The notes beneath the pieces are model-generated. The model was not told the DNA's origin, searched no databases, and worked only from the letters and a program-made list of their open reading frames with translations. From Trachythela sp. YZ-2020 (lineage: Eukaryota > Cnidaria > Anthozoa > Malacalcyonacea > Clavulariidae), in contig JADLSH010000335.1 of assembly GCA_016169945.1 (NCBI GenBank), positions 310,001-374,000 of the forward strand: a DNA stretch of 64,000 nt, given 5' to 3'. A program made the translations under genes and the position numbers. Shown here piece after piece: positions 3,362-60,516 of the stretch. Each line of letters starts with the position of its first letter. Within the stretch, counting starts at the first letter, position 1.

Positions 3362-4120
3362 TCACTTTCTAATGTTTTTCACAAGTTCCGATAGTGCAGT
3401 GACCATTGCAAATGTAACACTTTGTTGTTGTTGCTGGAATTGCTGTTGCTGTTCAAGTACAGACCTTTGAAATTGCTGCTGGTTCAACACTTGACTTTCC
3501 ATCAGGGCAATTTCACGCTCCCGCAATCGAGCTGATTCCTCGTGCTCATTCCTCTTCGCAGCCAATGATTGCTCAAGGACCTTCATGACGTCCCCATTGC
3601 TTCTTCTTCGTCGCTTCTCAGGTGTGACCAAAACACCTTCATCCAAATCTTGCTCGTCATCCAAGACTGCATCGGCCATAGCATGTCGCCGCCTCGTCTC
3701 TCCAAGTCGCTCTGTTGCTCTCTTCCTCATTTCCTCTGCTGATTCCCGATCTTTCTTTTCTTTACCCTTCACCTTCTCCATAGCTTCCTCACATTCTTTC
3801 ATCCTCTCCATGATATCTGTCAACATTTTGTCATATTCAGTGTATTCGACATCCAACCCACTACCTCGTGCTTCTTTTGCTTCTTTCGCCTTAAACTCTT
3901 TCAAAATCTTTTCAAATCGTTCTCTCACTGATCGCTGGCTGACCTTCATATCAAATGCTTTTAAGTTCTCAGCAATTGTTGTCCAGGCAGCACCTCTCTC
4001 TTTTGAACCAGACCGAAATTGGTAGGGTTCAACCACAACAATTTCTCGAAGCAGGAAGTCTTCGTGTCGTTGCTTCCAAACAAAGATTTCTCGCTTGCCT
4101 TTTCCTGTATCACTTGCCAT
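3362..4120 (-). CDS. Harbinger Myb/SANT-like DNA-binding protein
   Basis: This open 252-residue frame is the second protein of the element. In PIF/Harbinger transposons this partner helps nuclear import and recruits the transposase to DNA. Residues ~12-85 form a Myb/SANT-like tri-helical region with spaced aromatics (FVWKQRHEDFLL, then AAWTTIAENL, then SVRERFEKILKEF). A long charged helical region follows (residues ~85-190, many E/K/R), and the C-terminus is rich in glutamine (about 205-235). It faces the transposase and stops about 940 bp from it. It has no frameshift, unlike its partner. The paralogue at 37.3-38.1 kb shares the W...AW spacing. Confidence 0.85.
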   Translation of the reverse strand: MASDTGKGKREIFVWKQRHEDFLLREIVVVEPYQFRSGSKERGAAWTTIAENLKAFDMKVSQRSVRERFEKILKEFKAKEAKEARGSGLDVEYTEYDKMLTDIMERMKECEEAMEKVKGKEKKDRESAEEMRKRATERLGETRRRHAMADAVLDDEQDLDEGVLVTPEKRRRRSNGDVMKVLEQSLAAKRNEHEESARLREREIALMESQVLNQQQFQRSVLEQQQQFQQQQQSVTFAMVTALSELVKNIRK

Positions 4121-4782
4121 CTACAATAGAATATAAAACCAAATTGTTAAAAGGCACATACTCAAAAATAGCACAATTTCAAGTTCGTCCATAACCATTT
4201 TAAAAACAGCACAATAAAATTTAAAATAAAAGCATATTTGTAAAAATTATTAAATATTCTTTGAAAAAGGTGAACACATTTCAAAATCTGGCAATTGTTT
4301 CGTTTGTACGAAATAAACCACGAGTGATAAAGTACAGTAAATATAGTACTGCTGTTCAGACGATGTGTATAAAAATTTGCCGTCCATGTTTGCTTTATAT
4401 TTTATTTAATTATTCACGCACGTTTCCGATTTTTTAATTACTCCGCTATTATAATTATTTTGCGGTATGCGTGTTTGACACAGGCAAATAAATTTATTTT
4501 AAAAAGCATAAAAACACAAAAAAATAAACTAACCATAACTCGTTGTGAGGACTACGAGATTTACCAAAAACTTCGTACTAAACTGGGCGACGGCGACGAC
4601 TTTTTGTTGCGACTGCGAGATGGCGTATGCAATATGACGCGTTTTGGCGCGAAAATGACTAAACTCGTACTCGTAGTCGTACTCGTAGTCATTGCTAAAG
4701 CTCCCTAATGTGTCTCCAGTAACAAGATAAAAAGCTTTAAAATTGCGACGGGGTGATCTAAAGTTGCAACGTAGCTCCTTAA

Positions 4783-4928
4783 GGCTGTTTTCCACTTCAA
4801 CCGTATCGTACCGAAACGTAGCGTATTTCTTTGTTTCCTGAGTACTCGGGTAGAACTAATGTCTAATGACTGTGACACAAAAGAAAATGCTACGGTACGT
4901 TACGATAAGTTTGAAGTGGAAAACATCC
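4783..4928 (+). mobile_element. 146 bp MITE with TTAA target duplication
   Basis: The ends GGCTGTTTTCCACTTCAA and TTGAAGTGGAAAACATCC are inverted repeats, and both sides carry TTAA (4,779-4,782 and 4,929-4,932). A TTAA duplication is typical of piggyBac and Kolobok transposons. There is no coding capacity. A second, truncated, inverted copy lies at 50,106-50,213, next to the actin exon. Confidence 0.88.
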
Positions 4929-4932
4929 TTAA

Positions 4933-6100
4933 TATACTACGTCATCTCTGTTCAAAGCATCATGATTCATTGTTTATACGGCACTCTTCCAATAGCAGCA
5001 TCTCTGGCTATCAGCTCATCACGACTGTTAGTGCTAATTGCAACGGAATCGCATGTTTCATTTGACACAGGTATTTGATTCATCAAGATACTTTTTCTCA
5101 CAGTCACCGCAGAGTATATGAATATAGAGAATGCATACAGGATGTAAAAGAATGGAGTCCATTTTTGTGCTTAATAATTTCAGAATATTAGCCTTTATCA
5201 AATTATTTTTAATAATTAGTCTTATATCTCAAAGCTTGTTCTTGTTGCTTTCGAACAAGTGGTGATTTGTGTACGCATGAAAAGATTAATTATACAACCC
5301 ATCATTTTTAGATGCCGTATAATTATGCCATTTTCCTACGTTATTTCAGAGTCGCCTTCAAATTCTAGAATTTTCTTGTTCAAACTTCAATGTTGTTTTT
5401 GCTACGCGAGAAAAGGCAGCAAGAGCTCTTTACTAGAAGCATTTTAAAGGATCTTAGGGACCGTTCATTCGATAAAATCGACACAAGATTTTGTTTTAAG
5501 AGAGCTTAGGTTTTTTTATTTATTTCACCCCCAAATGTTTACTAAAATAATCATAAAACAATCTTTTGTCCATCGCCGGCAATAACGCCATGGCAATGGA
5601 AGGCGCCGTATTAATGTAAAAAAAATAATTAAGACATTAAAATTAATCGCGATGTTTTAACAAAAATGCGAGATAAATTATCTTCTTTATCTATGAACAA
5701 TATGAACATTCGTATTATATATCGGGCTATTCTCCACTTATGGAGGTTTCGTAGTCCGAAAGATTTCAAAAAGATCGAGCGATCAATTCTATATTATACT
5801 AGAAATATACATGCATGCAGAATCCCCTCGCCCATTTGAACCAAACAATTTACTCCCCAAAAGTTATTGTAACATGAAGTACTGAGTCGACGAATGTAAC
5901 CATGGTAACACGCAACATTGTATATTTTTTATATTTTAATTTGTACAAAATATTATTTTGTTTTTAACTATACAATTATCAATTGCCCAACTATATAAAG
6001 TGGGTATGCAATTATGTACTCTTTTAGCTTTGATTTACTGTAACATTCAACCCAGAGGAGGAATCGTCAGTATACCACAATGCATTGCGTCTCATTAACA
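4933..6100. other. Non-coding, nothing recognised
   Basis: Short AT-rich ORFs here show no known domain and no codon structure. A segment near 5,800 (ACATGCATGCAGAATCCCCT and the CGCCC after it) resembles 53,350-53,375, so some dispersed repeat is present, but its limits are unclear. Confidence 0.4.
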
Positions 6101-9542: not shown

Positions 9543-12500
9543 CAATGTTATTATTATTTTTATTATTTATTAAAATCTTGATTTGCAATATACACAGGTT
9601 GTAAATTGAAAAACTCAAGTTTACATCAATTGTTATAGTTAAAAATTTAAAAATTTTCTATCTCAATATGAGACAATACAGTATATAATTATATAAGTCG
9701 ATTATACTAATTAGAGTAAAATGTTAAAATGTTAAAATTTGTAGTTAAATATTTATGTTCAGTGAGAAGCTGCGCTAAACTAATGCGTCCCACTTTCTTA
9801 CGCAGTATGGTAAGAAACTGTCTTGGAACCGTTTTGTGCGACATTTAAATATCGGAAATTTACGAGTTTTTCTAAGATTGTATTGAGACTGGACTGGATC
9901 AGGCATCAAGGTGTTTAAGTTGTTTGGAGCACGTAAAACCTTTGAATAAAATGATTTACAAAGTGATTCTCGTCTATCAAAGAGGGTCGGCAACTTGAGT
10001 TCCACAAGTCCAGCAGCATACGACAAACGTGGACAGATGATCCTAATTGCACGACGTTGGATTTTCTCGACTTCATCATCAAGCTTCGAAGTTAAAGATG
10101 AGTGCCATACAGGACACGCATACTCCAAGACCGGGCGAATGAAGGAGCAGTAGACAGAACGTAAATCCTTTGAAGGGACGCCACTGCGTCGCAAAATTCG
10201 CAAAGCATAGAGACGTTTGCTCGCTTTAGTACACACATGTTCAATATGAATGTCCCACTTTAGATTGTTAGACAGGTGGACTCCCAAGAGTTTAATAGTG
10301 TGGACCAGTTCGAGCGGTTGGTCGTTAATTGCAAGGGGTTGTAACGAAGGTTGACTCTTCGCGAAAGTCACAATAAACTCCTTAGTTTTCTTGGCGTTGA
10401 GCTTCATGTTATTGTTAGAAGTCCAGCGAGCAATATCATCAATTTCCCGTTGTAAATTCGAGGTACTTCCAGGTGTCAGAGATACAACTTCAGAGACCGT
10501 GCAGTCGTCAACAAATTTGTACAATGGAAATGCTGTCGTCAAATCGTTTACCATCACCAAAAAGAAAAGGGGCCCCAATTTTGTCCCTTGTGGTACGCCG
10601 GCGTTAGTAGTTTTCCAGGTAGACTTAAATTTGCCCAATTTCACGCGTTGCTGTCGATTGTGAAGGAAGCTTGCGCACCAGTTCAAAAGGACTGGCGGAA
10701 CGTTGAAACGCTGAAGCTTACGAATGAGGACATTGTGATCAATCCGGTCAAACGCCTTGGAAAAATCGATCATACACGACCGAACCACAGTTTTAGGGGT
10801 CTCAGTTGCCAGTAACCATTGATGAACAAGATGGACAAGTGCATGTGTTGTTGAGGACTTTTTGACGCCACCAAACTGAAGAGGGTCAATATGCGGCATA
10901 ATGATGGCAGACAACCACTGGAAAACAAAACCCTCAAGAACCTTACTTAGTACAGCAGTCAAAGAGATTGGTCTAAGGTCACTGTCAATTGATAGTGGTT
11001 TAGGAATCTTTGGTAAAGGCAACACATCTGCTTGTTTCCACAGAGAGGGAACATATCCTTCACTAATCGACAGGTTGAAAATCGAGCATACTGGACGACA
11101 TATAACTGGAGATAAGTTCTTGAGGAGCCAATTAGGAATTTCATCAGGACCATTGGATTTATGTTCTTTGATCCTTGAAAGAGCGCATTGTACGGCTTCT
11201 GGGCTGATGATAAACTCGTCAGGAATGTGTGTTACTGGAATGGGAGTGTAGTCTAGCTGCGGGATATCGTCTGTAACTTTTCCAAAAGCGTCATTGATAG
11301 CTTCAGCGAGATCCATATCTTTCAAGAAGGTACCATCGATGTATATACTTGAAAGCGGAGCAGGTTTTGATTGACCAGACAAAAGCTTGATGTTGCTCCA
11401 CCATTTCTTTGGGTTTGAATTTTTCAGGTGACTGATGCAATTATGGTAAAAGCGACGACGCGCTGACTTGCAAAGACTCATTACTTTATTGCGATGTAGT
11501 CGATATAAGTCTGAATTACCATTGAGCCATGCACGCTGGCGTTTTTTTATGGTTGCTTTAATGTCAGGGGTCATCCATGGTTTATCTGTAGGGTGTACTT
11601 TGACTGTGCGGGTCGGTAGGTGTATATCGATTTTTTCAGTGATCAAATCCTGGAAATTTTGTAACTGGTTTTCACAGGAGTTAAGACGATACAAAGGAGT
11701 CCAATTTACCGACTGCAAGGAGGAGAATATGGCGTTCTTGTTAGAAACTCTACAGTCACGTCGTTGACATTGTGCAGTCGGTAAACTAGGTGCTTTGTTG
11801 CCAGTAGGTTGGAGAAAAACACTGGAGTGATCCGATGAGCCCAAAGGAGGGAGAATTGCGGGTTCACTGTAGTATTCTGACAAATTAGAATAAATTTGGT
11901 CTAAAACGTTATTGCCCCGTGTTGGTTTAAGTACAAGTTTCTTCAGTTTGAAAGATGAACACAAGTTTCTCGGTTTAAACTGGTTAAAGTCGCCAAGTAT
12001 GACTATTGAGGAATTTGGGTAGTTGGTGAGTATCAAATCCAGGCTATTGAAAATGTGGGCACGGAGTTTATTATCGTCGTTTTGTGGTGGGTGATAGACA
12101 GTACCCAAAATTATTGAATTAATTCCTCTCGGTAGGCGAGCAGGTTTGAGAAGGAACCACTGGCTTTCAATGTCAGGGTCGTTCACTTCGGGTAATTCAA
12201 CAAAATCAAACTTCGAATTAATAAATGTGCACAAGCCCCCACCGCGTTGGTCATTTGCTCTATCCCTCCGACATGTTATAAAACCAGGTATGTTAATGAG
12301 TTGGTCGGACACGCTTGATGAAAGCCACGATTCTGTAATAACAGCAATGTCGCATAAATTATTTCGAACAATTTCACAAAGTTCATCAATTTTGTTAATC
12401 ATGGACCTTGCATTGCTGAGAAATACTGTAGGAAATGAAGTTCCCGATGGATCAGAACGCCGTACAGGGACAAGCGAACGCCGATGGATTGGGAATCTCT

Positions 12501-12900
12501 TAAGGACTTCGTATGTTTGTATTTGTGGCAACACGGTAAACGTCCCTGTTGATGTAAATACGGTCTTCAATATACGGGGACGATTAGCAACAACAGAAAT
12601 TGATTTTGGCTGGAGAAATATTTTTGCTTTACCACCTCTACTACCACGTTGTCGATTTAAAAGGCCCAGATTTCTTAGTTTGTTCCAAGTCGAAGGTGAA
12701 ACTGGAAGTAGAGATTCGCCACGGCGCTGTACTTGAGTAGAGTTGAAGGGTTTCCACCAGTGTGTCAGTGAAACCAAAAAATTTCTTGAATAAGACAGCA
12801 TAAAGTCGCACAATAAAACTCAATTGCATCCAGATATATTTAGGACTAAACGTGTTCACTTTAGTAAAAGAGAAACGCAACAAGAAACAGTAAATATATA
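9543..12900 (-). mobile_element. CR1/L2-like non-LTR retrotransposon (LINE)
   Basis: The element runs on minus. A single long ORF (12,813-9,775) is followed by a ~230 bp 3' UTR that ends in an AATAA-rich simple tail at about 9,543-9,575. Such microsatellite-like tails are usual for the CR1/L2 branch of the Jockey superfamily. The 5' limit is not clear and is set approximately. No target duplication was identified. Confidence 0.8.
9775..12813 (-). CDS. LINE endonuclease-reverse transcriptase ORF, 1,012 residues
   Basis: The protein nicks target DNA and reverse transcribes the element RNA from the nick. Residues ~130-335 are an APE-type endonuclease: SNARSM near 133, catalytic E161 in ITESW, D275 and N277 in VILGDFN, and SDH at 327-329. 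Residues ~590-830 are the reverse transcriptase: LRPISLT at 613, motif A MIDFSKAFD with D683, motif B GVPQGTKLGP at 739, and motif C as FVDD at 767-770. The end has the conserved IRPVLEYACPVW segment. There is no internal stop across 1,012 codons, so this copy looks young. No separate ORF1 was seen upstream. The first ATG was used; the true start could be internal. Confidence 0.92.
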   Translation of the reverse strand: MCDFMLSYSRNFLVSLTHWWKPFNSTQVQRRGESLLPVSPSTWNKLRNLGLLNRQRGSRGGKAKIFLQPKSISVVANRPRILKTVFTSTGTFTVLPQIQTYEVLKRFPIHRRSLVPVRRSDPSGTSFPTVFLSNARSMINKIDELCEIVRNNLCDIAVITESWLSSSVSDQLINIPGFITCRRDRANDQRGGGLCTFINSKFDFVELPEVNDPDIESQWFLLKPARLPRGINSIILGTVYHPPQNDDNKLRAHIFNSLDLILTNYPNSSIVILGDFNQFKPRNLCSSFKLKKLVLKPTRGNNVLDQIYSNLSEYYSEPAILPPLGSSDHSSVFLQPTGNKAPSLPTAQCQRRDCRVSNKNAIFSSLQSVNWTPLYRLNSCENQLQNFQDLITEKIDIHLPTRTVKVHPTDKPWMTPDIKATIKKRQRAWLNGNSDLYRLHRNKVMSLCKSARRRFYHNCISHLKNSNPKKWWSNIKLLSGQSKPAPLSSIYIDGTFLKDMDLAEAINDAFGKVTDDIPQLDYTPIPVTHIPDEFIISPEAVQCALSRIKEHKSNGPDEIPNWLLKNLSPVICRPVCSIFNLSISEGYVPSLWKQADVLPLPKIPKPLSIDSDLRPISLTAVLSKVLEGFVFQWLSAIIMPHIDPLQFGGVKKSSTTHALVHLVHQWLLATETPKTVVRSCMIDFSKAFDRIDHNVLIRKLQRFNVPPVLLNWCASFLHNRQQRVKLGKFKSTWKTTNAGVPQGTKLGPLFFLVMVNDLTTAFPLYKFVDDCTVSEVVSLTPGSTSNLQREIDDIARWTSNNNMKLNAKKTKEFIVTFAKSQPSLQPLAINDQPLELVHTIKLLGVHLSNNLKWDIHIEHVCTKASKRLYALRILRRSGVPSKDLRSVYCSFIRPVLEYACPVWHSSLTSKLDDEVEKIQRRAIRIICPRLSYAAGLVELKLPTLFDRRESLCKSFYSKVLRAPNNLNTLMPDPVQSQYNLRKTRKFPIFKCRTKRFQDSFLPYCVRKWDALV

Positions 12901-16982: not shown

Positions 16983-17368
16983 TCAGCACATTCGATCTTT
17001 AGCAAGATTGTCTTGACTGAATGATCGTCTATCTGGAAACAGTTCCCGGAAACCAGGTAAAGTATCAGAGAACCCAGCAACCACTTGGCAAAATTCTTCC
17101 ATGTTGTTACAAAAGCTCAGTGCTTTCTTTACATTGTGTGCCAACAAAATGTATGGTGCTTTCTTGCTCAGCGAGGTCAAGAACTGAGCCAAGGCTTCAG
17201 CCAAGCTTAGAGCCCTCACAAATTTATTTTCATGATAGAGGATTCCGTTTATGACGGTGAGTTTATTCACGGCAGATGCCTCAGGTGTTATACCATTTTG
17301 TGGGATGACATACACATTAAACTCTTCCTGTCCATCTGTAGCAGCAATTTGACAAATTTCTGCATCAT
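16983..17368 (-). CDS. DEDDh (DnaQ-like) exonuclease exon, partial
   Basis: The frame begins after a TTTCTTTAG acceptor and reads AEICQIAA, a typical post-motif-I strand of DEDDh 3'-5' exonucleases. It goes on with a beta-strand ending in VIPQNGITPEAS, then LAHN (exo II), then FSDTLPGFRELFP and ends at a stop. The first catalytic motif (DxE) must lie in an upstream exon that I did not find. The usual aromatic-D after AHN is replaced (KALSF), so activity is doubtful. It sits 160 bp outside the left TIR of the 12.2 kb element, which may have inserted into its intron. It could be a host gene remnant or element cargo. Confidence 0.65.
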
Positions 17369-17527
17369 TTCCTAAAGAAATAAAAAAATATTTCAACAAG
17401 GGTAACAGCAATCACAGTAATGAGAGGGCACTATGGACAAGCTTGCACACAGAAATGTTTGTTAGTTTTTCCAAATATACAAAGAAATGTTCTGGTTTGT
17501 TTATTGTCAAATATTTGGTAATTTGAC

Positions 17528-17664
17528 CAGCCTCGTACCCAGGCGCAAAAAAACTTAAAAATAGGCACACTACAGTATATTTATATAGATCAGTGATCAA
17601 GCGAGCGAGCGCGCGGTGGTGCTTGGGGAGGACGCGATGAAGGGAGCGCCTGGCAGAATATGCA
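17528..17664 (+). repeat. Left terminal inverted repeat of the 12.2 kb element
   Basis: It matches the reverse complement of 29,622-29,764 over its whole length with a few indels in A-runs and one GATGAAGG versus GACGGGAAAGCGAA difference. It ends 6 bp before the first ATG of the helicase gene, so the promoter probably lies within it; TATATTTATATA at about 17,576 is a TATA-like candidate. Confidence 0.92.
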
Positions 17665-18369
17665 ACAAATATGGCGGACGACTTATCCATATTCATAGAT
17701 GCAAATGAGGAAATTGCTGTACTCCATGAAATTGAAAGGCCTGTCCATCGAGCGGTACATTTGGGAAAGATTTTATGCCCAGATGATCACTGCGTTGCTA
17801 ATAAGGATTTTTTCCTCGAGAACGGTATTGTTCATCATTTTCGAATAAGGCACAAACAAGAATTTACGAGCGCTGAAAGAAGAAAATCCACTCAAATATG
17901 CAATGATTTATATCAGCAAGAAACAAGAACATGCATGGAAGCAATCTTTGAATATCGCAGGAAAAAGGTATGTATAAAAATGGACAAGAATGTTAATTCT
18001 GCTATAAACATTCATTTATGTCAAATATAAAAATTACAATATTTTATGTTAGTGTATGAAATGTTTTATTATATAGAATCAAGGTTACCGTGATGTTGCT
18101 GTATTGTCTTGTGGACGAAACCTCACATGTGCTGTACACAACGATCATGAGGCTGTGCAATTTATGTGCCTGTTGGCTGTTGCAATACCATGCAGGATGT
18201 CTAAATTCGTATAGCCAAGGAAATCAGCCATGTGAAGTTGTAATAACAAGGGATGCGTTGCAGGCAAAATACAATTGCTGGTATTTAAAGAAAAAAGTGG
18301 GTAGTGGTGTTTATTTTCAAACCGAATGTTTTTTTGTGAAACGGGTAAGTTCTCATTCCAGTTAGTGGT

Positions 18370-19128
18370 TCATTTAATATTTATTTTGCGATAATGCAAA
18401 GTTGTTTTTATGAGCCCTGGCCATGTACTGATCAATTTAATAGAAACTTCAACATCCCCCCCCAGGCTGACCCCAGGAATTTGAACTTTTTTAAATTTCG
18501 ACTTTTCAAATTCCACGTCTTCCTGCACAAAAAATATGTTCAAATGCCCCACTGTAACAAGACGTTGAGTGCTTAAATGCCCCACCTTCATACAGAAAAT
18601 CATGAAAAAATACAACATAAACAACAAGGAATGCAGTCACCATATATTTTTTGAGAATGTAGGAAATGTGAAAACTGATTAGGGACCCATCCCCTTTTCT
18701 TCGAGGGAGTCTTTGACAAAATCTACCCATTTCCTCTCGAAATTAACTAAAAAACTGCATCCACCACCGTTGTGAAAATTTTTCAGTTTAATAGTTTGAG
18801 TTTGATGTGATAAAACAGCATGAGTAATTTAAGGCTTCTGGTTATTCTTGTTCAAATTCCCCACTCATGACGAATTCCACAACCCATGTGAGACACAGTA
18901 TGCCCTACTCCTCAGAGAAATATGATGGTTTAGAGTCAAATTCCTAGGGCCTGCCAGGGCATATTGAAGTTTCGAGTTGATCGGTGCATAAATAATAGCA
19001 AGATTTAAAGTGGTTCTAATATTTTAACATTGTTGAGATATCTTATTACATAAACTAATGAAGCCTTTGATGGTGGTTTTAATTACATTAGCTAGCATCA
19101 GTTCCAAGATTGGCCTATTCCAATTAAT
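18370..19128. other. Intron sequence of the RecQ gene, nothing recognised
   Basis: No exon or mobile element was recognised in this part of the 2.3 kb intron. Short open frames here are not convincing. Confidence 0.4.
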
Positions 19129-19129
19129 A

Positions 19130-19462
19130 TCTGCCCCCCCCCCCCCCCCCCCCCCCCATTGAGGAACCTTGGAATTCCAAGAGGGTGGTAAATTAAAATT
19201 CTTTAGGGATTTCCATGGGGAGGGTCTTGAGTTTTGTGGAATTTGCATGGGGTGGCATACTGTATTTCCATCTTTCCAGGGGGTATAAAAGGCATCTCCA
19301 GGGGGTCTGACATGAATCTCCAGAGAGGAAACCTAAGTTTTTATCAGAATTTACATGGGGTTGGTGGTTGATCAAATGTAGGAATTTCCACATGGAGGCA
19401 ATATATTTGGGTTGGAAATTCCATGGGGTGCAAAAGAAAGAGGTTCCTCAATGGGGGGAGGG
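19130..19462. mobile_element. ~330 bp MITE with C-run/G-run ends
   Basis: CCCCCCATTGAGGAACCT at about 19,150 faces AGGTTCCTCAATGGGGGG at about 19,440. The left end is extended by a run of about 25 C and the right by GGGGAGGGGAGGGGG. The interior has no coding capacity. It lies in the long intron of the RecQ gene. Confidence 0.7.
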
Positions 19463-19791
19463 GAGGGGGATACTGCTACAATTAATGCACCTTGGAGTAT
19501 CTACTGTAATAAATCAACATGCCCCTACATATATTGCAGTTTATTACATATATTTATTCACGTCTACAGTACTTATACAAGTTTTGAAGTTTACAAGTCA
19601 AATCTGGACAAACACTCACATGGACTGACATTTTTAGTAGATTCTGTTAATGTCTATATGTATATGGTCACACTTTAATTGAAGAAGTAAAGTACATCAG
19701 CATACTGAGTATTATTCTGCACAGATGACAATGTAAACAGGCAGGCCATGTGATCTTACCGATATAGAGAGTAATACATGGGTGTGCAGAA

Positions 19792-20248
19792 CAGGGCTCG
19801 AAATAGCGGGCTGCCAATGACCAAAATTAAGCAGGCCATATTTTAGAAATGGCAGGCGAAAAAAATTTTGACCTGCGAAGTCAAAAATAAAGTGGCAGGC
19901 GAAATTCTACAGATTGTTATATTTCATTTGCCTCCCTTGTACTAGTATTCTTAATTTTCGGCGTTTTTAATGACTCGCATAATGGCTATATTTCAAAATA
20001 TCAAAGTTTTTTATTTTAAATTTTTGTTTTACATGTCTATTAAATTGAGTTTTCAGCGACGTTAGACATTTCAGCGAGCGGTACTTGATGAAATCCTTAT
20101 GTAGTCTACGGCATAGTCGTCGAGCGTCAGTGACGCAGGATAATCCTTAAGTGGCAGTTCAAAAATAAATATGGCTGGCCAAAATTTTTTTGATCTGCCA
20201 AAGAAATATAGTTTGGCAGGTCATATTTTTTTCCTATTTCGAGCCCTG
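19792..20248. mobile_element. hAT-type MITE with perfect 8 bp target duplication
   Basis: The ends CAGGGCTCGAAATAG and CTATTTCGAGCCCTG are perfect inverted repeats. The flanks are identical, GTGCAGAA at 19,784-19,791 and 20,249-20,256. A CAGGG start with an 8 bp duplication is diagnostic of hAT elements. The 457 bp interior has no transposase; sub-terminal GGCAGGCGAA-like repeats are present. It inserted into the intron of the RecQ gene, so it is younger than the host transposon. Confidence 0.95.
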
Positions 20249-23104
20249 GTGCAGAATATGATAAACATTACTGATATACATGAAAATTTATTTCTCTATT
20301 TTAATTGCCTAAGAGCAGTTAACTTTTAAGGTAAAACAGTGCCAAAAACTATTATGTAATGTATGTAAAAAATTATTGTTGCATGGTGGCTTAAACTGGC
20401 TTTGTGATTCGAGTGTACAGTATTACAGCAACTAACCTGTTTCAAACATCTCGAATGCTGTTGTAATTTTTGATAGAAAATTAAATAAATGTACTTAACG
20501 GCAATATTTAGTGTAAATATGTCCAAAATTAAACAGTGCACAGTAAATTGGCATAATTATATGACCACACTAACACCCATTGCAAATTACGGTAAACTAA
20601 TTTCACTTATATCTAAATCTAAAATTAAAACTTTAACTTCTTTACACTAGGATTACAGATCAACCATGAATATACTAATGGCTGATATCACTTCGCTTCA
20701 GGAGGCCAGTATTGATGACCAACAGGTATCTCAACCATCTGATGACCCTTATATTGATATTTTGCAACATATCTTTCACCATCAAAATTTCAGAGGCATA
20801 CAGAGGGATGCCATAGAATGTATCGCCTCGGATAAAGATGCCTTAGTCGTAATTCCTACTGGCGGGGGGAAATCTAGCTGCTACTGGATTCCAGGCATGG
20901 CTGTCTCAGGAGTAACTGTGGTCATTACACCACTTATGGCATTGCAAAGTGATCAGGTTAATAAATTACAGAACTATGGAATAAAGGTGTGCAGTGTGAA
21001 TTCAAGTATGCCAGCAGAAGAAAGAGAAATTGTATTCCATAGTCTGTCTCAACCTGAAACAATGTTCAAGTTTTTTTACCTCACACCCGAATTCGCCCTA
21101 TCTCCACCTGCTATGGCATGTTTTAAATCAATGGTAGAAAATAATTCACTATTACGATTCATCGTTGATGAAGCACATTGCGTTGATATGTGGGGACAAA
21201 ACTTTCGACCGATGGTAAGCTAGGGGATTTAAAGCAGTTTGGCAGACCAATTGCTGCATTTACAGGAACTGCAACGAATCTAACAAAAGAGAGGATTGTG
21301 AAAAATCTAGGGTTGGTTGAGGCTGTGGTTCTTCAATCAACATGTAACCGGAGTAATTTGATCTTCAACGTTGTTTCGAAAAGCGGACCACATGCGAAAG
21401 AAGATGTGGTAAAATATGTTCAAGATAATTTTGGTGATTCTTGTGGCATTGTGTATTGTTCTACAACAAAGGATACTGTTGAGTTGGCCTATATATTTAA
21501 GTCAAAGGGCCTGTCAGCCGTTTACTACCATGGCAAACTGGATTTTTTTGAAAAAAATGACAATGCTAAAGCTTGGCTGTCAGGAACGGCATCGGTTATG
21601 TGTGCGACCAGTGCATTTGGAATGGGCATCGATAAACCAGATGTTCGTTTGTTGTCCATCTTAGTTTGCCAAAATCACTTGAAGAATATTATCAAGAGGC
21701 AGGGAGGGCTGGCCGTGATGGAACGAAGTCACATTGTACGCTCATGTATCGCTTTGAAGACAGGAACAAGCTAATCCAGTTGATTTCCAAATCCTTGAGT
21801 CAAGAACACTTGGAATTCCAAATGACTTCTCTTAATAAGGTTGTGTCATATTGTATGTCACATGTATGCAGACGAAAGCTATTAATGGAATATTTTGACG
21901 ATGAGACAGAAACCAACTGTAATGGAACCTGTGACAATTGTTTGAAAACTCCACCAGCTATTAAGGATTATACGAACGAATCGATCAATTTGTGCCATTG
22001 CGTCCAAGAAATGCTAGCAGTGAATGCGAAGATTAATGTCAAGCAGGTGGCACTCGCTTTTAAAGGCTCGAAATCAAAACGTGACATAGAAAGCAAAGGT
22101 TTCCATGTCATTTCCCATTATGGTTCGGGGAGAAATGTTTCCAACAATGATGCAGACGCTATTAAATTTGTGCAACACCTCATCGTGCATGAAGTGTTGT
22201 TGGAGAACATTCGTGCAGTGGATGATAGATTTACAACGCCATACATTACTCTGGGAAAAAAGGCACAGTCAGTAATAAGCAGAGAAATATGTGTGTTCTT
22301 AATGATATAATTGTGAAAGCAATGTCTTCTTTAAGGTTGTCCTCCAATAAGGGTAAAACCTGGTTTTCACTTGCAACGTATAAAGTTATTTTGAATTTGC
22401 TTTTGCTCTGTCTTATAGCTTATGTCGATGCTTATGTTACACACATCATTACATTTCTTTGTTTCGTCTATTGTCTTTCCTTATGCTATGTCGCAAGTCA
22501 AAACTATAGGCTTGAAAGCCAGTCGCGAAAAGTACGATGGTATTTTACAGGGCTGGAAAAAATAAATTTCTTCCTGGGAGCACAATCCGGAGATAAAGAT
22601 TTCCTGCAGAACAACCGAGTACTTTTAGGCTAAATCTGTGCTTAAACCATGCTTAAACATAGTTGACCATTGACTTGCATGTTGGAGTTTCCTTCAGATT
22701 TTCAAATTTCCTGCAGCTGTTAACATGCTGCTCGCGTGCATGCTCGTCTATTTTTCCACTCCTGGACTATTTTATGAATTAAATATTCGTCTCTCAGCTA
22801 TATTCATACAAACAAGTTTCACGGGCAATCCCCATAAGCTGTTGTGTTAATATACTGATTAAATCAAACTATATATCAGCATTTTTCTGTTAAAAAACTG
22901 CAACTATAAAGTTCCTCAGCATGCAGTTTTATCACATGTCGGTAAAGCTGTATGCATGGGAAAAAGTCATTTATTAACGCGAAATTGATTCATTCAAACA
23001 AGTCACTCCCATTGTACTTTTTGCGCTTGGCTTTTTTGGCATTTTCGGAGCTGAGGGCAACTTTAATGCTATTTATAGCTGTATATACAATGCAATTGGA
23101 ATGC

Positions 23105-23588
23105 CTATGTACAAGATCGTATGACATTTTTGGTAGTGTCAGATGGTCGCTCTGTTACTCTATTATTACTCGCTGTCCGACGCCTGTTCACCGTCCGACA
23201 TTTGATCACTTTGGGACAATTGTACATTTTGCAAGGATATTCGTCTAAATGATGGAAAGCTCTCATGAAGTTTAATTTGGCTTTAAATTTATCTTCAACT
23301 TTCTTTTCACCCTTCATCACGACATCCATACAGGACTTTGAAATTGGTTTTCTTTGCACATTTGCACTTCCTAATGGAAACTCCATAACCACTTTGCCAG
23401 TTGAAGCTTTGAAAAAGTGGTTAACAAGGCAAAACCACATTCCTTTCAACACATCTGGAAGAGAACTTTGCTCCTTGTGCTTTGTGGTTTGATAGAAATG
23501 AAAAGGCTCTGCGTACGCACTCCTTACGGATCCTAACACATCAAGATTTCCTATTATTCTTTCACACATTTGAACTGAAGTGTGACCT
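23105..23588 (-). CDS. Last exon of the probable transposase
   Basis: It follows a TATATTTTAG acceptor and encodes about 160 residues from GHTSVQMCERIIGN to a stop at 23,105. The preceding exon ends KTYASG at a GTAAG donor (23,796), so the two join in the helical region typical of the C-terminal part of the family. The last 50 residues are basic and contain CKMYNCP. It meets the RecQ gene tail to tail about 800 bp away. Confidence 0.6.
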
Positions 23589-23795
23589 AAAATATAAAAA
23601 TAAAATGAATGTAATATGTTATTTGAAGTATTCATCTTCAGGGTTTTTGTAAATAGCTTTTTCATGATTTTAATTTGTTGTCAATTGTTTATTTACGTTT
23701 ATATCCTGGATATACTAATAAGACTATAAAGTTTCCTATCTCGTTTATAATTTTCTGTATATATTATTCGATACATTTTATATTTAGTATCTTAC

Positions 23796-25209
23796 CAGAC
23801 GCATATGTCTTCAAAGGCCTAACAATATATGTTTCGACATATTCATCCATATCGACGTTATGACTTTGTTTTCCAGTAAGGTTGACTGACATGTTTCTCT
23901 TAATCATTTGTCTAAAAGCCAATGGCCACAGGGAGGTGAAATTTACCACATGTACAAATGCTTCTGTCCAATACTTTCTAAAATTGAGCTGTGCGAAGAT
24001 CGGCAGTAACAGAACCCAAACCGTTTCCCTAAGGAGTCCATCTCCTTCTCTGCTGGCAGTTATATACATGTCTAATAGCGGTCCAAACATTGAAAACATT
24101 TGTTGGTGATATCGGTGAGAATCATCACCTTCACCACACTTTTTTAACCATTTTTTAAACTTGCTCAGCAAAACATCATTATGATCCCCAGACTTTCGCA
24201 GAGCTGCAGTTAATTCCTCTTGTGATGGAAACTCTTCAGACGCTCTGAACTCTTGGACCGCAGCAAAACCATATGCTTTGCTTCCATCTCTAACACTCTC
24301 TTTTATATGGTTGACTATTTTGTGAAACCCGCCTTTACCGTGAGCTTTAAATACGGCTTCACACAAGTGACCCTTCGTATGCAAATCTCCTGGAATCTCC
24401 GTCATCCAACTAAATGCAGTGCTGTTTCTGTTCTTCACGCTGCGATTAATTTTGCATGTCCCCACGTCACCTACAACTGCTGTTGGAAAACCTTGGTAGT
24501 GTGATCTTTTGTATTCAAAAGCATGATTGCTAGCACTTTCGGCATTGCTTTCGGTGTCCATACAATGGGTTGAATTGACGAATGTTTGGTTGTTGATGAA
24601 ACTATAGTCAAGGCTTTGAAGAGCATCTATGGTTGGACTTTCCTTTGTTTGGGAATGCGAGTGAAATAGCTGAACAATAGCCATTTCCAATGGACTTGGG
24701 AAAGAGTCAAATAGAGCTCCTTCATATTCTGCAAAATATTCCAACAGAAGTTTGCACATGGTCAGATCATTGTTAAGAACAGCAATGGTCATAGCGGTAG
24801 CTCCACATCCTTCTTTAACATTAGGGTTTATCCCAATCGACAATAATACCTTCACTAACACGTAATTTTTCATTTCAACAGAAAAACTAAAAATTGTTCT
24901 TCCATACTGATCTGTTATCCTATTTATTTTTTCGACATCGTTCGAAAGCTGTTCTATCAAGATACCCAATGGGTCATCTTCGTTCGAGTGGGTGATATGT
25001 GTAGTCTGTCTTGAAATTCGCGCGTACAAATCTTTGAAGGTTTCGCTTTCTTGTTGAACAGTTCTTTCAGCAACACGTTCTATTCCATTTGTCTCGCTCT
25101 CTTCACTTGAATTAGTATCCGGTCCGCTATTATTTTCATCTGGTATATCCAGCTGCTTTTCACGAGACCGCATTTGCTTTTCAGTTTCGAGCATTTCCGT
25201 TCTGTGCAA
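23796..25209 (-). CDS. Ankyrin-containing exon of the probable transposase
   Basis: The block is ~470 codons. Residues ~95-165 contain two ankyrin-like repeats (GRTIFSFSVEMKNYVLVKVL and GATAMTIAVLNNDLTMCKLL). The C-terminal half is an uncharacterised helical domain with WLKKCG, FGPLLDMYI and LWPLAFRQMI segments. In this family class the domain forms the C-terminal part of the transposase. The ATG at 25,209 lies in a duplicated segment, so the true upstream join is uncertain. Confidence 0.6.
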
Positions 25210-25515
25210 CTCAATCTACCTCAACTACCTCCACATTCCATCCGGGCAGATATCAATTGATATCTGTCGGTCTGATTAAAGGAATTATGGGAATTTGGCT
25301 ATTTTAGACAGCTCTTCACTTGAATTAGTATCCGGTCCGCTATTATTTTCATCTGGTATATCCAGCTGCTTTTCACGAGACCGCATTTGCTTTTCAGTTT
25401 CGAGCATTTCCGTTCTGTGCAGCTCAATCTACCTCACAAATTCGTATTGCATCCGGGCCGAATTGATATCAAATTTCTTGTCGGTCTGATTAAAGGGAAT
25501 TTCATAATTCTTAGG
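25098..25515. repeat. Local tandem duplication of about 212 bp inside the transposase gene
   Basis: The stretch from CTCTTCACTTGAATTAGTAT to the GGTCTGATTAAAGG segment occurs twice, at ~25,098-25,283 and ~25,312-25,498. The first 115 bp are nearly identical; the second half carries small indels. It breaks continuity between the 25.4-26.0 kb and 23.8-25.2 kb coding blocks, so it is one cause of inactivation. Confidence 0.85.
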
Positions 25516-26016
25516 ACAGGGGATTGAAAACTCTTCGCCAAATTGTTCAATAATCTCTGCCGTGCCAGTCAGGGTTGAATTGTCCTCTAATGACAGCTTA
25601 AGGTTGACAACTTCTGTCTTTGAGCTCTGGCTAATCGAGAAACGTTCTTGTTTTGAAGGAGGATTAGTCTTAAACTTTTTATCGGTTTCACTATCATGTT
25701 TAGCAAAATCGATTCTGGAGAGCCACGAGTTGAATTCTGCCTCACGCATTTCACCGAAAGGCTTTGGCGGTGTAGGAATACCATTTAAACTCTGATTGAG
25801 TAGCTCCAAATAATATCCATCACACCATTCATCCCATACCTTCTTATGCTCAGGCATTGAATCTTGAAAGAAATGAAGTGACATAAAGGTACTGTAATAC
25901 GAGGAACAAATTGCTGCAATTTCTCTGGCAACATCTTGTCCCAAGGGATGTTTATTGAAAATGCATGTACATGCATAAATAAGAACAGTTTTGTGAACAT
26001 CACTAGCTTCTGGCAT
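25430..26016 (-). CDS. Middle exon of the probable transposase
   Basis: The open block of about 195 codons begins near a splice site at 26,016 (PEASDVHKTVLIYACTCIF) and runs through a region with KVWDEWCDGYYLELL, then into a polar linker. No named domain is recognised. Its position between the catalytic-looking block and the ankyrin block supports membership of the same gene. Confidence 0.5.
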
Positions 26017-26275
26017 TCTTCTAAAATACCATGATACAAAAATTGCAGCATTTTGTTGCCCATATTACTTTACCTTAAAAGCAATAAACGACAAGACATA
26101 CAGAAAAAAGATTGACAACATCCGCGAACAAAAGCACAAAGCGAAAGTCATGAGACTGACTTTTGATCTAGGCCTTACTAACTTTCATGACATTGGGAAT
26201 CTAAAGAGTACTGCTGTATCTGTATGAACTCTGTAGAATACCATATAAACAATTCGAATCACGTATACGTACCTA

Positions 26276-26505
26276 AGAACAATTATATTGGATATATCCG
26301 ATTGTGGCATTGTCGCAGTCTGTCATTAGATCTGTTATCTCTGATATATCTGGAACGATCGCTCCTCTGACTGTGAAACTCCACATATTGGGGCCCATTG
26401 ATTTTGAGAGCCTGAAATGACGTTTCCTTCCACGGTAAAGATTAATATTGTCCATCAACAGTATAACTGGATTCGAAATAGGGCATTTATCTTCAATGAT
26501 ACTTG
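26276..26505 (-). CDS. Catalytic-looking exon of the probable transposase
   Basis: The minus strand reads PVILLMDNINLYRGRKRHFR, followed by MWSFTVRGAIVPDIS. Strand-DN followed by a basic loop fits a DDE transposase catalytic aspartate. An acceptor AAAGTAG lies just upstream. A TAG occurs directly at the likely GTACGT donor, so either the donor is slightly different or the exon is damaged. Confidence 0.5.
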
Positions 26506-26599
26506 GCTACTTTGTTTTGCGTTGATCGAGAAAATTGTTTCTAAAAGGTATTAGAAATTGTAAGAGACAAAATTGTACGTAATCGTTTGTACATATTCT

Positions 26600-26970
26600 G
26601 AATAAACATGTTATAAGAGCTGCTGAGCTGACCGCTACGCGTGGCGGTCAGCTCAGCACGTCTCGTGTGCGCATGATTTTTGTGAGAATTAAATCTCGCG
26701 AGACCTTGATCAAAATATATATCTTGTTTGATATTTTTTGGCACGCGAGGCAAGGATGTTGTGAGTTCTTAGCTCAGCTGTGAATATATAGTAGCCAGTA
26801 AAAACATGTATATTTCTCGCGTGGTACGGCATATTTGCCGCCATTTTGAAATTTAGCGCAAAGTAAAATATTAGCTTAGCACTTTACTTTACGTTGGCAA
26901 CTAAAATATAGAGCTGAGCTAACTGCCACGCGAGGCGGCAAGCTCAGCCAAGAGCTCTCGTGTGTCAATC
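26600..26970. repeat. Hairpin cluster with GAGCTGAG-type arms
   Basis: A near-perfect hairpin (26,619-26,658: TGCTGAGCTGACCGC facing GCGGTCAGCTCAGCA around TACGCG) is followed at 26,910-26,960 by GAGCTGAGCTAACTGCC and GGCGGCAAGCTCAGCC. Both are next to CTCTCGTGTG or GTCTCGTGTG. This looks like a foldback insertion within an intron of the transposase gene. Confidence 0.65.
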
Positions 26971-27805
26971 CAATTGAATTTAATAGGTTCATGAACTGTT
27001 TGCCAGTGCCAAATGTCACACATACTAAACCAAGGAGCAGTCGAACATCATTTCTGCATTTCTCATTCCGTACACTCAGTAACAAGGACAATGCATTTAC
27101 ACCACAGGTCAGTTTATACTCGGGTGATTTGTACACTCGTTTTCTTTTATCAGTTACTAAAAGTGTTTGGAGAACACTATGCAGTAGAGGGCACTTTTCT
27201 TGAAAAACGTTTATAAAGTCACATTGATGTTATTGTCAAATAAATACACGTACATCACTATCGTTTTTTTTTTTTATTTAGGTTATTTCTTCTCTCTTCT
27301 CTTCTTTATTAATTTGCTTTTTTTTTTTTTTTCTTCTATTTTAACACCTCCAGGAACACTAAGCAGTTTCACTTTGACCTAGTACGTTTTTATCAACGCT
27401 GAGTTTAATTTGAAAAATTGTTGCAATTTCAAATTATGGTCTTTTGAAAGCTCATTAGCCAGTTTAATATCTCCATCATCTAATGCAGAAAGAAGCAGTC
27501 GTGTCTGTTCAGCTAAACCGTTTTCCATGGAAGTAAGTTCATTGTGCATAACGGAAATATCATCATTTTCAGCAAATAGCTGAGTCGGAACGAGAGGCTG
27601 ACTACCATGTGGTTTCAGTAGCGTTTCACTGACAGATTAGTATAGATAACTCTATTCAATGTTAAGAAAAATTATAATATATTGTCACATAAAAATTATA
27701 ATATAAGGTTAGAATTTATTTAAAGCAAACAGTTGCCAGAATAAAGTAGCCAGCAGTAACGTGGACGTTTAGTTGTAATTATTCGTATTGTTATATTGTC
27801 CCTGG

Positions 27806-28770
27806 TGAAAATCTTGGACAGGGTTATAGGATCCTAACAAGATCCCACAGTATTCAGGATCTTATGAATTCCTTTAAATAATCCTATTTAAGATCCTATA
27901 GGATCTTACAGGATCCTGACAGGATCTTGTATCAGGATCTTGTAGGATCCTACAGGATCCTATTCTGGGATCCTGTGCAGGAAATATTTATATTCCTATA
28001 GGATCTTGTACAGCATCCTACTAAAATCCTCTTCAGGATCTTATGAATTCCCATAAATAAGCCTATTTAAGATCCTATAGGATTTTACATGATTCTGATA
28101 GGATCTTGTAGGATCCTAACCCAGGATCCTGTACAATCCTACAGGATCCTATGCAGGAAATTTTTGTACTCCTATAAGATCTTGTACATGACCCGGTAAT
28201 ATCGTCATGTTTCGCAGGATTCTATGCAGGATTCTATGCAGGATTCTACAGGAAACCTCTCTAATTTTTTATAGGATCTTACAAAATCTTGCCTGTCATA
28301 ACACATGATACAAAGCAAATTCTAAACAAAAAAAGACATCTTGAGACTCAATATCAAAACATTATTGTATACAGAGTCTATTTTGTCTTTCTCTCAATAC
28401 TGCGTCCACGATGTCCGATGCTTCATATTGTATTCCTACATATCCAATTATAAATAATTTCTTTACATGAATCTGCCAGAGGACTTGTGGTCACCAGTAA
28501 TTTTGTACAGCCCCAACAATGTTGTATGTTAAGATCCTGTCTAAATCCTGTAAGAAATGTTAGGATCCTGGCAACATCATGTAGGAAAACATTAGGATTC
28601 CTGGGTATAATCCTACCCGAATGTTTTCAGGATCCTATGTCAATGCTAAAGGAAAGACTTACAGTCCTAATTAAATCTTGAAGTAAAGTTTCAGGATCCT
28701 GACTAAATCCTGCAGTAAAAGTTAGGATCCTGAAATGTCTAGGATCCTGAAATATTAGGAATCCTAATAG
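27806..28770. repeat. GGATCC-rich degenerate tandem repeat, ~1 kb
   Basis: Words such as AGGATCCTACAGGATCC, AGGATCTTGTA and AGGATCCTGA recur dozens of times at variable spacing. The word AGGATCCT is itself palindromic, so both strands look alike. It sits within the transposase gene, probably intronic, between the 28.86 and 27.65 kb exons. Confidence 0.85.
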
Positions 28771-28858
28771 GATTTAGGTGCATGTTGTGTAGAGTATTCT
28801 ACAGTAATTACTGGTATATAAATTATGTTGCTGCATAGTCCTAATTACTTCATTGTAC

Positions 28859-29626
28859 AGCAACTGTGTTACTCTCAAAAGGATACACATCTTCACCTCC
28901 AACAACCATTTTTTTTTTCGTGGAATGTGGGAAAATGTCTTTAATTGCCCGTGGTGTTAAAGGATGCTTCCCTGGTTGAAATGATTCTTTCTCCTTTTGC
29001 GGGGTGCTTGTAACATTCTGTCCTAGAGTTTTATTAAAATTCTTTTAAGATATGAAAATTATTTCTTGTAATCATCTTATCACATTTATCTCCAAATATA
29101 TTACAGTTAGACCAAGATTAGCATCTTTGTAAATATATAGCATTATCCTAGTCTCATAATTTTTCTGGTATATTATATATATCCATATTGGTATATGTAA
29201 ATACTGCATGCACACTATATATAATAATGTATACTTTGTATTTTAATGTTTTGCAGGAACAATCTGAAAACATTTCTTGTCTGTTGGTTTCCTAAATAAA
29301 TATTATCATTCATGCATGTTTGTATAATTAATGCACTTGGACTTTGCTATCATCAAGAGAGAATATTGAAAACTCAAGGCAAACCAAAACACTCACCTCT
29401 AACACTAAATTCTTCGCTACCAAACAGTGTAATGTCTTCCTCCGAACTTGATGATGCTATAAGTATTGAAAGGACATTGTTAAACTGCGAATTGAAAATT
29501 TGAAACAGTATAGTGAGCATACAAAACGAGATTTGTAAAAAAATCGTCATAAAATCAAAAATACTCACATTCTCAAGCCTTTACGCATTTCTCACTTTTT
29601 GCAAAAGTGGAGGCGGAAATCTGCAT
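28859..29626 (-). CDS. First three exons of the probable transposase
   Basis: Exon 1 (29,626-29,596) starts with ATG 2 bp inside the TIR boundary and encodes about ten residues; exon 2 (29,456-29,397) encodes an acidic TSSSSEEDITLFGSEEF segment; exon 3 (29,022 to ~28,859) encodes a polar TPQKEKE and AIKDIFPHSTKKK stretch. GTGAGA and GTGAGT donors and phase 1 junctions agree at both introns, which supports a real spliced gene. Such low-complexity acidic and basic segments are common at transposase N-termini. Confidence 0.65.
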
Positions 29627-29764
29627 ATTCTGCCAGGCGCTTCGCTTTCCCGTCGCGTCCTCCCCAAGCACCACCGCGCGCTCGCTCGCTTGATCACTGA
29701 TCTATATAAATATACTGTAGTGTGCCTATTTTTTAAGTTTTTTTTGCGCCTGGGTACGAGGCTG
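29622..29764 (-). repeat. Right terminal inverted repeat of the 12.2 kb element
   Basis: It mirrors 17,528-17,664. It includes the translation start of the transposase gene near its inner edge, whereas the helicase gene starts 7 bp beyond the left TIR. The shared TATA-like TATATTTATATA suggests that both genes are driven by the same promoter sequence. Confidence 0.92.
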
Positions 29765-45957: not shown

Positions 45958-47259
45958 TGTCCAAATATGAAACCTCGCTCGACACATACAACAAGTTCTT
46001 ACGTGACAACATCACAAAAACATATAAGCATGGGTCCGAGGACACTATAGATGAAATTGATTCAGAACTAAAAAACATTTCGAACAATTTAGGAATCGGC
46101 GACAGAATTGAAAAAAATGAAAAAACGCGAAGCATTTATATCTTTAAAAGATCACAAAGAAAATTTCGAAAACAATCCAAAATGCCGATTAATTAATCCC
46201 GCTAAAAGCGAATCCGGAAAAATAAGCAAAGTTATTTTGGACAAAATTAATTCCAATTTGAGAGAAAAACTGAATTTAAATCAATGGAGGAATACAAAAC
46301 AAGTTATTCAGTGGTTTGGCAATATAAAAGATAAGGACAGACACAGTTTTATTTCGTTTGACATTGTCGATTTCTACCCATCTATTTCTGAAAAACTGTT
46401 GGACCAAGCTTTATCTTGGGCTTCAAATTTCGCTACTATACCTGAAAACGATATTTCAATAATAAAACACGCTAGAAAATCTCTCCTCTTCAATACCGGA
46501 ATTTCATGGATAAAAAAAGATAGCCATAGTTTGTTTGACGTTAGCATGGGCAGTTTCGACGGCGCGGAAATTTGTGAGTTAGTAGGCCTTTTCATTTTAA
46601 ACCACCCGAGTAAGAAATTTGGCAAAGAAAGCATCGGTCTATATAGAGATGACGGTTTGGCTATTATAAAAAGTAAATCAGCACGTTTGGCAGACAAAAC
46701 AAGAAAAGATCTCCACAAAATTTTCGAGCAGTTTGACCTAAAAATTACCGCCGAATCAAATTTACGCATTGTAAACTTTTTAGACGTAACTTTCGACCTT
46801 AACAATGGAAAACATAGGCACTATAGGAAGCCCAATGACGATCCACTATACATAAATATGCACTCTAATCACCCATCGAGCATCACAAGGCAACTACCTG
46901 CATCAATTAACAAGCGCATTGCACTTCTTTCATCAGATGAGCAAACTTTTCAGGAATCTGCAGCCATATATCAGAACGCACTTAGGCATAGCAGCTTTAC
47001 CCATGAACTTAGCTACACTCAGCACACACCGCAACAACAACGCATGAATAGGCAACGCAATATCATTTGGTTCAACCCACCATTTAGTAAGAGTGTTAGC
47101 ACAAACATAGGACGTAATACATTACCACAGTTAACATTTTTTAACAGAAATACAGTTAAAGTAAGTTACAGCTGTCACAGTAAGCAACACAAACACGATC
47201 AAAAATTACATTGGCATGACTGCAACCACATTCAAAGAGCGACTGGCCAACCACACTAA
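45958..47259 (+). pseudogene. PLE reverse transcriptase
   Basis: An N-terminal part (45,960-46,105) joins by a frame slip to the 383-codon frame at 46,108. Visible motifs are LINPAKSESGKISKVILD, motif A SFDIVDFYPSI, MGSFDGAEICELVGLFIL and motif C IGLYRDDGLAI with both aspartates, then VNFLDVTFDL. Past VKVSYSC (47,158) the sequence jumps into the GIY-YIG region with about 80 residues missing. The 5' end of the RT is also missing because of the inversion. It is catalytically intact in the core but truncated at both sides. Confidence 0.85.
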
Positions 47260-47590
47260 ATCTTTTCAGCATAAAAAGCATGCAAATGACACGGAACTTT
47301 CGAAATATATTTGGACATTGAAAGAAAGCAATAAGGATTTCAGTATTAATTGGCAAATTTTAAAACATTCTATTTCGTACACGGGAGGATCAAAACGATG
47401 CAATTTATGTTTAGAAGAAATATTTTGTATTTTGAAAGAAAAAAACAAGAATTGTTTACTCAACAAAAGAGCTGAAATAATTTCACGGTGTCGTCATCGA
47501 AATAAATTTCGCGTAAACAACGCAAACAAAGCCATGCATGCAGACATTGTCTCCCACATACACCCCCACGCTCCGGCAGGAAGTATATAA
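47216..47590 (+). pseudogene. PLE GIY-YIG endonuclease, C-terminal half
   Basis: The frame reads ATTFKERLANHTKSFQHKKH with the conserved arginine of the GIY-YIG alpha helix, then ELSKYIWTLKESNKDFSINW, then SKRCNLCLEE and LLNKRAEIISRCRHRNKF, typical of the end of PLE endonucleases. The N-terminal GIY and YIG strands are missing through an internal deletion. GIY-YIG cuts the target to prime reverse transcription; this copy cannot. Confidence 0.85.
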
Positions 47591-50105: not shown

Positions 50106-50213
50106 CCGTAGCATTTTCTTTTGTGTCGAAGTCATTAGTTCTTCAATTGGTGCTCAAGAAACAAAGAAATACTGCGTTTCGGTATTACGATACATTTGAA
50201 GTGGAAAACAGCC
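50106..50213 (-). mobile_element. Second, truncated copy of the TTAA MITE
   Basis: It matches 4,783-4,894 in reverse orientation, including GGCTGTTTTCCACTTCAA, TATTTCTTTGTTTC and CACAAAAGAAAATGCTACGG. The distal end is missing. It stops 64 bp before the actin ATG, so it may lie in the promoter or 5' UTR. Confidence 0.85.
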
Positions 50214-50276
50214 TTTAACGTGGATTCTGTCTCACTCGTTGGAGATTTGTCGCAGAAGCTAAGAAATTTATCAAAA

Positions 50277-50528: not shown

Positions 50529-50548
50529 GTAGGTTTTATGTAGACTTG

Positions 50549-60390: not shown

Positions 60391-60516
60391 GGTGGCGAGG
60401 TTTAAATGCTTATAAGTGTAGCACTTAGCACGACCACAGGAAACAGTGCCAGCTGTCCTGTCGCAGTGAGCTGTGCACTAGGGTTTCCCGGATGTTTTTA
60501 CTGTGTCGAAAAGAGA

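Follow-up and report, generated by a model that had tools for sequence, protein, structure and literature searches.

Does the 12.2-kb segment at positions 17528-29764 of a 64,000-nt stretch of Trachythela sp. YZ-2020 DNA (assembly GCA_016169945.1, contig JADLSH010000335.1, positions 310,001 to 374,000, forward strand; hereafter the window) represent a DNA transposon that couples a RecQ helicase to an ankyrin-bearing DUF6589 transposase, and, if so, among which known transposons does it belong? A first-pass annotation, made from the sequence alone, had proposed such an element and had placed it within or close to Academ. Our analysis makes it probable that the segment is a degenerate, rearranged copy of an AcademH-type two-gene cut-and-paste DNA transposon, one whose relatives elsewhere in the same genome carry both genes.

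Terminal inverted repeats (TIRs) of ~140 nt, with arms 94% alike, bound the segment, in agreement with the annotation. The left end matched the right end at 94% over 137 nt (right match at window 29622-29764), and the arms include a 91-nt stretch of 97% identity (17547-17637/29653-29743) plus an outer 34 nt of 91% identity. The 16-nt TIR terminus occurs twice in the window, a count reached in 0 of 100 shuffles; chance TIRs were considered and rejected. The left flank is a repeat whose three other full copies run uninterrupted across the TIR start point, which fixed the left end at 17528. Between the TIRs lie two convergent multi-exon genes, again as annotated: an N-terminal domain (N-domain) joined to RecQ on the + strand, beginning just inside the left TIR, and an ankyrin and DUF6589 gene on the - strand, running inward from the right TIR. 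Pfam supported both, with DEAD (6e-17), Helicase_C (5e-10), RecQ_Zn_bind (4e-15) and RQC (5e-12) on the + strand, and DUF6589 (1.8e-14) and Ank_2 (2.8e-6) on the - strand. The RecQ gene consists of two short exons followed by a long third exon that holds all of the helicase domains. The ends of the element and the RecQ exons are as follows.

17528..17664, + strand: left TIR (CAGCCTCGTACCC...), boundary from three uninterrupted paralogous sites
29622..29764, - strand: right TIR, from its match to the left end
17671..17967, + strand: RecQ exon 1, N-terminal domain with a C-x4-C...H-x4-H pattern and a long helix; GT donor at 17968
18077..18344, + strand: RecQ exon 2, remainder of the N-terminal region, frame changed in the window copy; splice sites and P0087 junction to exon 3
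20651..22310, + strand: RecQ exon 3, with DEAD, Helicase_C, RecQ_Zn_bind and RQC; two frame breaks

The RecQ splices are supported by P0087 (Paramuricea clavata, 266 aa, named 'helicase Q5'), which, free of introns, runs from the last part of exon 1 through exon 2 and into exon 3, and GT/AG splice sites are present at the expected positions. Of exon 1, P0087 matches only the final 19 residues (53%), the putative finger described below lying outside it. By sequence, the best solved relatives were RECQ5 for the N part of RecQ and BLM for the C part. On the other strand, P0012 reads across the last transposase intron.

The element belongs to a mobile, TIR-bounded family that makes 9-bp target duplications, keeps its two convergent genes together and is constrained at the protein level. 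Searching the host genome (578 Mb, 396 contigs) with the left-end TIR gave at least 52 listed matches, a lower bound in that 40 of 851 candidates were scored. A perfect 9-bp target duplication flanked 8 of 14 elements inspected at both ends, corresponding to seven distinct insertions, as two of them share site and flank; these elements measured from 148 nt to 8.95 kb. The one-ended loci C123, C320 and C390 were left out of the 14, of which 11 were rechecked. Two of the duplication-flanked copies join distant parts of the window sequence, C321 (L028) linking 17524-18315 to 27771-29764 and C79 (L030) linking 17528-17751 to 27705-29764, junctions that we read as internal deletions, so that the starts of both genes are carried along inside a TIR pair. 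The 8.95-kb copy, C384, likewise has a 9-bp duplication and keeps parts of both genes; C123, lying in the opposite orientation, stays collinear with the window through most of 18304-29735, at 92-98%; and C280 is a diverged, TIR-bounded 12.7-kb copy with pieces of both genes at 45-71% amino acid identity. The checks that the annotation had proposed turned out in its favour, with a multi-copy TIR, both genes present in other copies and the gene pair recurring, several times inside TIRs. Between subfamilies, pS (0.67-0.86) far exceeded pN (0.12-0.33), which points to selection on the protein. Over 183 codons, C123 departed from the window by ~1% at silent as at replacement sites (more elsewhere), and short TIR copies were 95-100% identical to the window TIR, suggesting fairly recent activity. 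In C321 and C79, we also observed that much of the interior was 89-98% like the window and the TIRs only ~74-84%, as if the ends had been swapped with another subfamily.

The 12.2 kb that the annotation described as a DNA transposon are, however, no single clean insertion. The window copy is a dead, rearranged relic that ends in unrelated flanks, the sequence beyond the right TIR showing no continuation of the left-flank repeat, and no target duplication surrounds it (6 of 9 positions mismatch). Both genes are broken, RecQ by a frame change in exon 2 and two frame breaks in exon 3, and the transposase by in-frame stops in two exons and an internal duplication. Most likely this copy was born by recombination between two insertions, though an assembly join may instead account for the missing duplication. 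The left-flank repeat (16983-17527), inside which the transposon sits, has an open reading frame (ORF) whose weak resemblance to the Exuperantia RNase H-like domain falls slightly short of the cut-off (E 1.2e-5).

Pairing of RecQ with the ankyrin transposase is the hallmark of the element. Among the matches listed, 56 of 75 ankyrin-transposase loci had a convergent RecQ no farther than 15 kb away, and 56 of the 58 RecQ-transposase pairs were convergent, against 0.47 pairs expected under uniform placement. As a control from the same genome, 102 other DUF6589 loci were taken, and 2 of them had RecQ within 15 kb, likewise among the matches listed. Of the 75 loci, 20 had the N-domain no more than 20 kb away, convergent in all 20 (0.71 expected), and the two genes diverge in step, by a rough estimate from 50 of the 56 pairs (Pearson 0.90, Spearman 0.66). 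The 75 loci were merged by hand from 135 rows obtained with the ankyrin exon of the window as query (88 of 334 candidates scored), and the 102 controls came from 104 DUF6589 rows best-scoring to DUF6589 itself (102 of 690 candidates scored). None of the controls lies less than 5 kb from the 75 loci; their lack of ankyrins was judged at six rows that span the insertion point and are too short to hold the block, C107 alone having been scanned whole. The RecQ list was built with the window RecQ as query (150 of 486 candidates scored), so that diverged RecQ genes beside other DUF6589 loci were possibly missed, which favours the contrast. From its 150 rows we used 122, dropping 10 rows that were extra pieces of a locus already listed and 18 short matches of low score (on C50, C76, C89, C138, C267, C279 and C395), none of which lay, by eye, within 15 kb of a transposase locus.

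This pairing also bears on a composite or nested origin, in which a separate RecQ element and a separate transposase element would stand side by side within accidental outer TIRs. Such an origin would suit the window copy, with its missing target duplication, its repeat on the left with three uninterrupted paralogues and its lack of a continuation on the right, yet it is contradicted by the recurrence of the same convergent pair at most of the loci, and by C321 and C384, in each of which a single pair of TIRs, flanked by a perfect 9-bp duplication, encloses parts of both genes. We regard a composite as highly improbable, and retain the reading of one two-gene transposon.

The transposase, identified by the annotation as DUF6589-like with ankyrins and borne out as such by the Pfam matches above, comprises the following parts.

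29397..29484, - strand: 5' exon, just inside the right TIR; 96% amino acid match in the C123 and C321 copies; splice motifs
26965..27651 (approximate), - strand: upstream coding exon or exons, broken here; P0086 match at 26948-27202; a single 249-aa frame in the C280 copy
26303..26540 (approximate), - strand: exon with LLMDNIN, the candidate first catalytic aspartate; in-frame stop here; P0078, P0086
23796..25884 (5' end approximate), - strand: main exon, with the end of the DUF6589 N part, the ankyrin repeats and the DUF6589 C part; in-frame stop and internal duplication
25099..25436, - strand: internal direct duplication within the main exon, two 125-nt copies 213 apart
23250..23586 (3' end approximate), - strand: last exon, into which P0012 and P0078 extend

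Repeats occupy two of the gaps in this gene. At 27853-28732, in a transposase intron, dense imperfect AGGATCCTGT-type direct and inverted repeats are found, as they are in the C321, C79 and C320 copies, and at 26540-26965, between exons, repeats with GCTGACCGCCACGCG-like motifs look, by eye, like a nested short element.

Downstream of the ankyrins, DUF6589 was matched over profile positions 101-365 in P0001 and 101-373 in C280 (the better of two stretches). In one of the other DUF6589 loci (C107:73159-74442), the profile runs contiguously from 30 to 410 with no insertion. Since DUF6589 is split near profile 96-101 in the ankyrin transposases while that of C107 is unbroken, the ankyrin block appears to have entered immediately before the VVGDVGT / GGDQLT motif, whose GD is invariant. 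In 35 aligned relatives, chosen out of 86 transposase homologues, D473, D499, H501 and E508 (P0078 numbering) were kept in all 35, E642 in 34 with one gap, and the YWTEAF glutamate (alignment column 1041) in 33 with two gaps. On this residue pattern, the acidic residues of LLMDNIN, VGDVGT and YWTEAF likely form the catalytic triad. The ankyrins were modelled at a pLDDT of about 90. By precomputed domains, 51 of the 86 homologues had ankyrins and DUF6589, 20 ankyrins without DUF6589 and 15 no ankyrins, a count biased by the ankyrins in the query. Two of the proteins matching the transposase query, P0064 and P0083, also hold a reverse transcriptase domain and are probably read-through gene models. 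Named homologues of the query include Paramuricea, Nematostella and Actinostola proteins, matches that by themselves make an anthozoan host probable, perhaps an octocoral. The family also carries a warning for annotation, as the Paramuricea clavata proteins 'helicase Q5', 'GA-binding subunit beta-1 isoform X2' and 'BRCA1-associated RING domain 1' look like fragments of transposon relatives.

The head of the RecQ protein is zinc-finger-like, resembling a C2H2 finger by residue pattern and predicted secondary structure only. C36, C41 and H56 were invariant, and H61 nearly so, in 16 exon-1 sequences (the window and 15 others). These came from a search with a two-exon alignment that gave 24 matches, 18 of which went into one alignment; two exon-2 proteins and P0106, in which the cysteines are lost, were dropped before the exon-1 alignment. 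P0087 was 81% identical to the N-domain query over 57% of its length. In the N-domain model (pLDDT 87), two 2-residue strands flank the cysteine region, the first histidine lies on a helix that ends at the second, and there is also a long helix. Foldseek with this model gave no match at E <= 0.001 (best 4.5), Pfam gave nothing above cut-off for the N-domain, and likenesses of its relatives to Imm65, DUF6953 and zf_RING_Vps8 fell below the Pfam cut-off and were set aside. The host genome held at least 136 listed N-domain matches, many partial. With the spliced N-domain-RecQ query (region 1-212), none of 464 candidates reached E <= 0.001.

These parts suggest how the element may work. The DUF6589 protein is most likely a DDD/E transposase that would bind the TIRs, cut at CAGCCT... 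and insert through 9-bp staggered cuts, and its ankyrin block sits between the aspartates of LLMDNIN and VVGDVGT. RecQ would most likely act on ends or gaps, unwinding or remodelling them in the course of excision and repair. The finger may bind DNA or a partner and, together with the ankyrins, could recruit RecQ to the transposase or to DNA; the ankyrins might dock a partner, perhaps RecQ, which is the most speculative of these steps. Helicases are recurrent partners of eukaryotic DDE transposases, and to our knowledge their role there is unsettled. More tentatively still, and with more doubt than confidence, we propose a distinct, undescribed lineage whose ankyrin module, inserted between the first and second catalytic aspartates, docks a dedicated RecQ by way of its finger-like head, forming a two-component transposase-helicase machine. 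The ankyrins and RecQ would then have been gained together, RecQ being a frequent neighbour of ankyrin transposases and an infrequent one of other DUF6589 loci. If RecQ and the ankyrin insertion came as a package, docking becomes a testable idea, for which the genome's remaining DUF6589 loci offer the natural comparison.

Besides the missing duplication of the window copy, several results weigh against our interpretation of the family and its proteins. No duplication was found at 6 of the 14 elements (the window, L006, L040, L023, L036 and L037, the second end being poorly defined in the last three), nor was a 9-bp duplication found for the C280 copy. Among the matches listed, a convergent RecQ was missing from 19 of the 75 ankyrin-transposase loci; at two of the 19, a same-strand RecQ lay ~6 kb away. 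The DUF6589 match ahead of the ankyrins (profile 40-96) is weak alone (E 0.016, below cut-off); only 3 of the 35 aligned sequences extend as far as the LLMDNIN aspartate, and all 3 keep it; and the transposase model had an overall pLDDT of 61.6 and a poor core. Finally, the assignment to AcademH goes through the description of its duplication and helicase, not through named Academ transposase sequences.

Elsewhere in the window, we noted a 1014-aa LINE-type ORF with endonuclease and reverse transcriptase domains (9778-12819), an actin-family gene piece (50139-50540; Pfam Actin 1.1e-22), and a DDE_Tnp_4 piece (1215-1928) with a Myb/SANT-like ORF (3365-4120), probably Harbinger genes, both slightly below cut-off. 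The ORFs at 46093-47587 and 60037-61851 we take to be Penelope-like from their motifs; their scanned parts (46093-47256 and 60520-61209) gave no Pfam match.

Among known systems, MuDR elements make target duplications of 9-11 bp, and the nuclease of AcademX is XPG. MuDR was set aside, there being no MULE Pfam match at E <= 1 in 10 coding pieces of the element. XPG had no match in the same 10 pieces. AcademX, which shares the Academ name and is described in the available part of one source with a nuclease and 3-4 bp duplications (PMC10045372), was ruled out by that result and by the 9-bp duplications here. The genome holds at least 82 listed XPG_I matches, and one locus, L054 (C82:4898001-4905000), has at 3719-5311 a 531-aa XPG nuclease ORF with a HIRAN domain, possibly an AcademX-like element.

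RecQ also occurs in Kolobok lineages, namely KolobokH and Kolobok-1_CCri, the latter with RecQ on the complementary strand, as in our element (PMC9587614, seen in part). A KolobokH-like element with a Kolobok transposase would share the RecQ helicase, but Kolobok duplications are TTAA (same excerpt), whereas all eight here are 9 bp and non-TTAA, which contradicts this origin for the family and makes it the least probable that we considered.

The other DUF6589 loci of the genome share with the element the DUF6589 core, GGDQLT taking the position of VGDVGT, and differ in the uninterrupted domain of C107 and in their scarcity of neighbouring RecQ. We found no mention of DUF6589 in the literature searched, and no description of ankyrins in Academ or RecQ transposons in that literature, which lacked the original AcademH paper.

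AcademH reportedly goes back to Kojima (2020, Mob DNA 11:15). It is cited or described in PMC10045372, PMC10799480 and PMC12210899, each available in part. We call the element AcademH-like because both its 9-bp duplication and its helicase, here RecQ domains between the TIRs, agree with AcademH as excerpted, a DNA transposon with a helicase gene and a 9- or 10-bp target duplication (PMC10045372). This part of the annotation's Academ placement stood; the XPG-neighbour comparison said little either way, the DUF6589 rows (104 listed) and XPG_I matches (82 listed) giving a single pair within 40 kb. That near-lack of adjacency, and a placement made by description rather than by transposase comparison, would also suit a separate superfamily-level DNA transposon with a DUF6589 transposase and RecQ, convergent with AcademH and not its descendant. 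We consider this unlikely, given that the duplication and helicase are those described for AcademH (PMC10045372, in the part available) and that absent XPG neighbours fit AcademH just as well. Most likely, the element represents an AcademH-like lineage with an ankyrin transposase.

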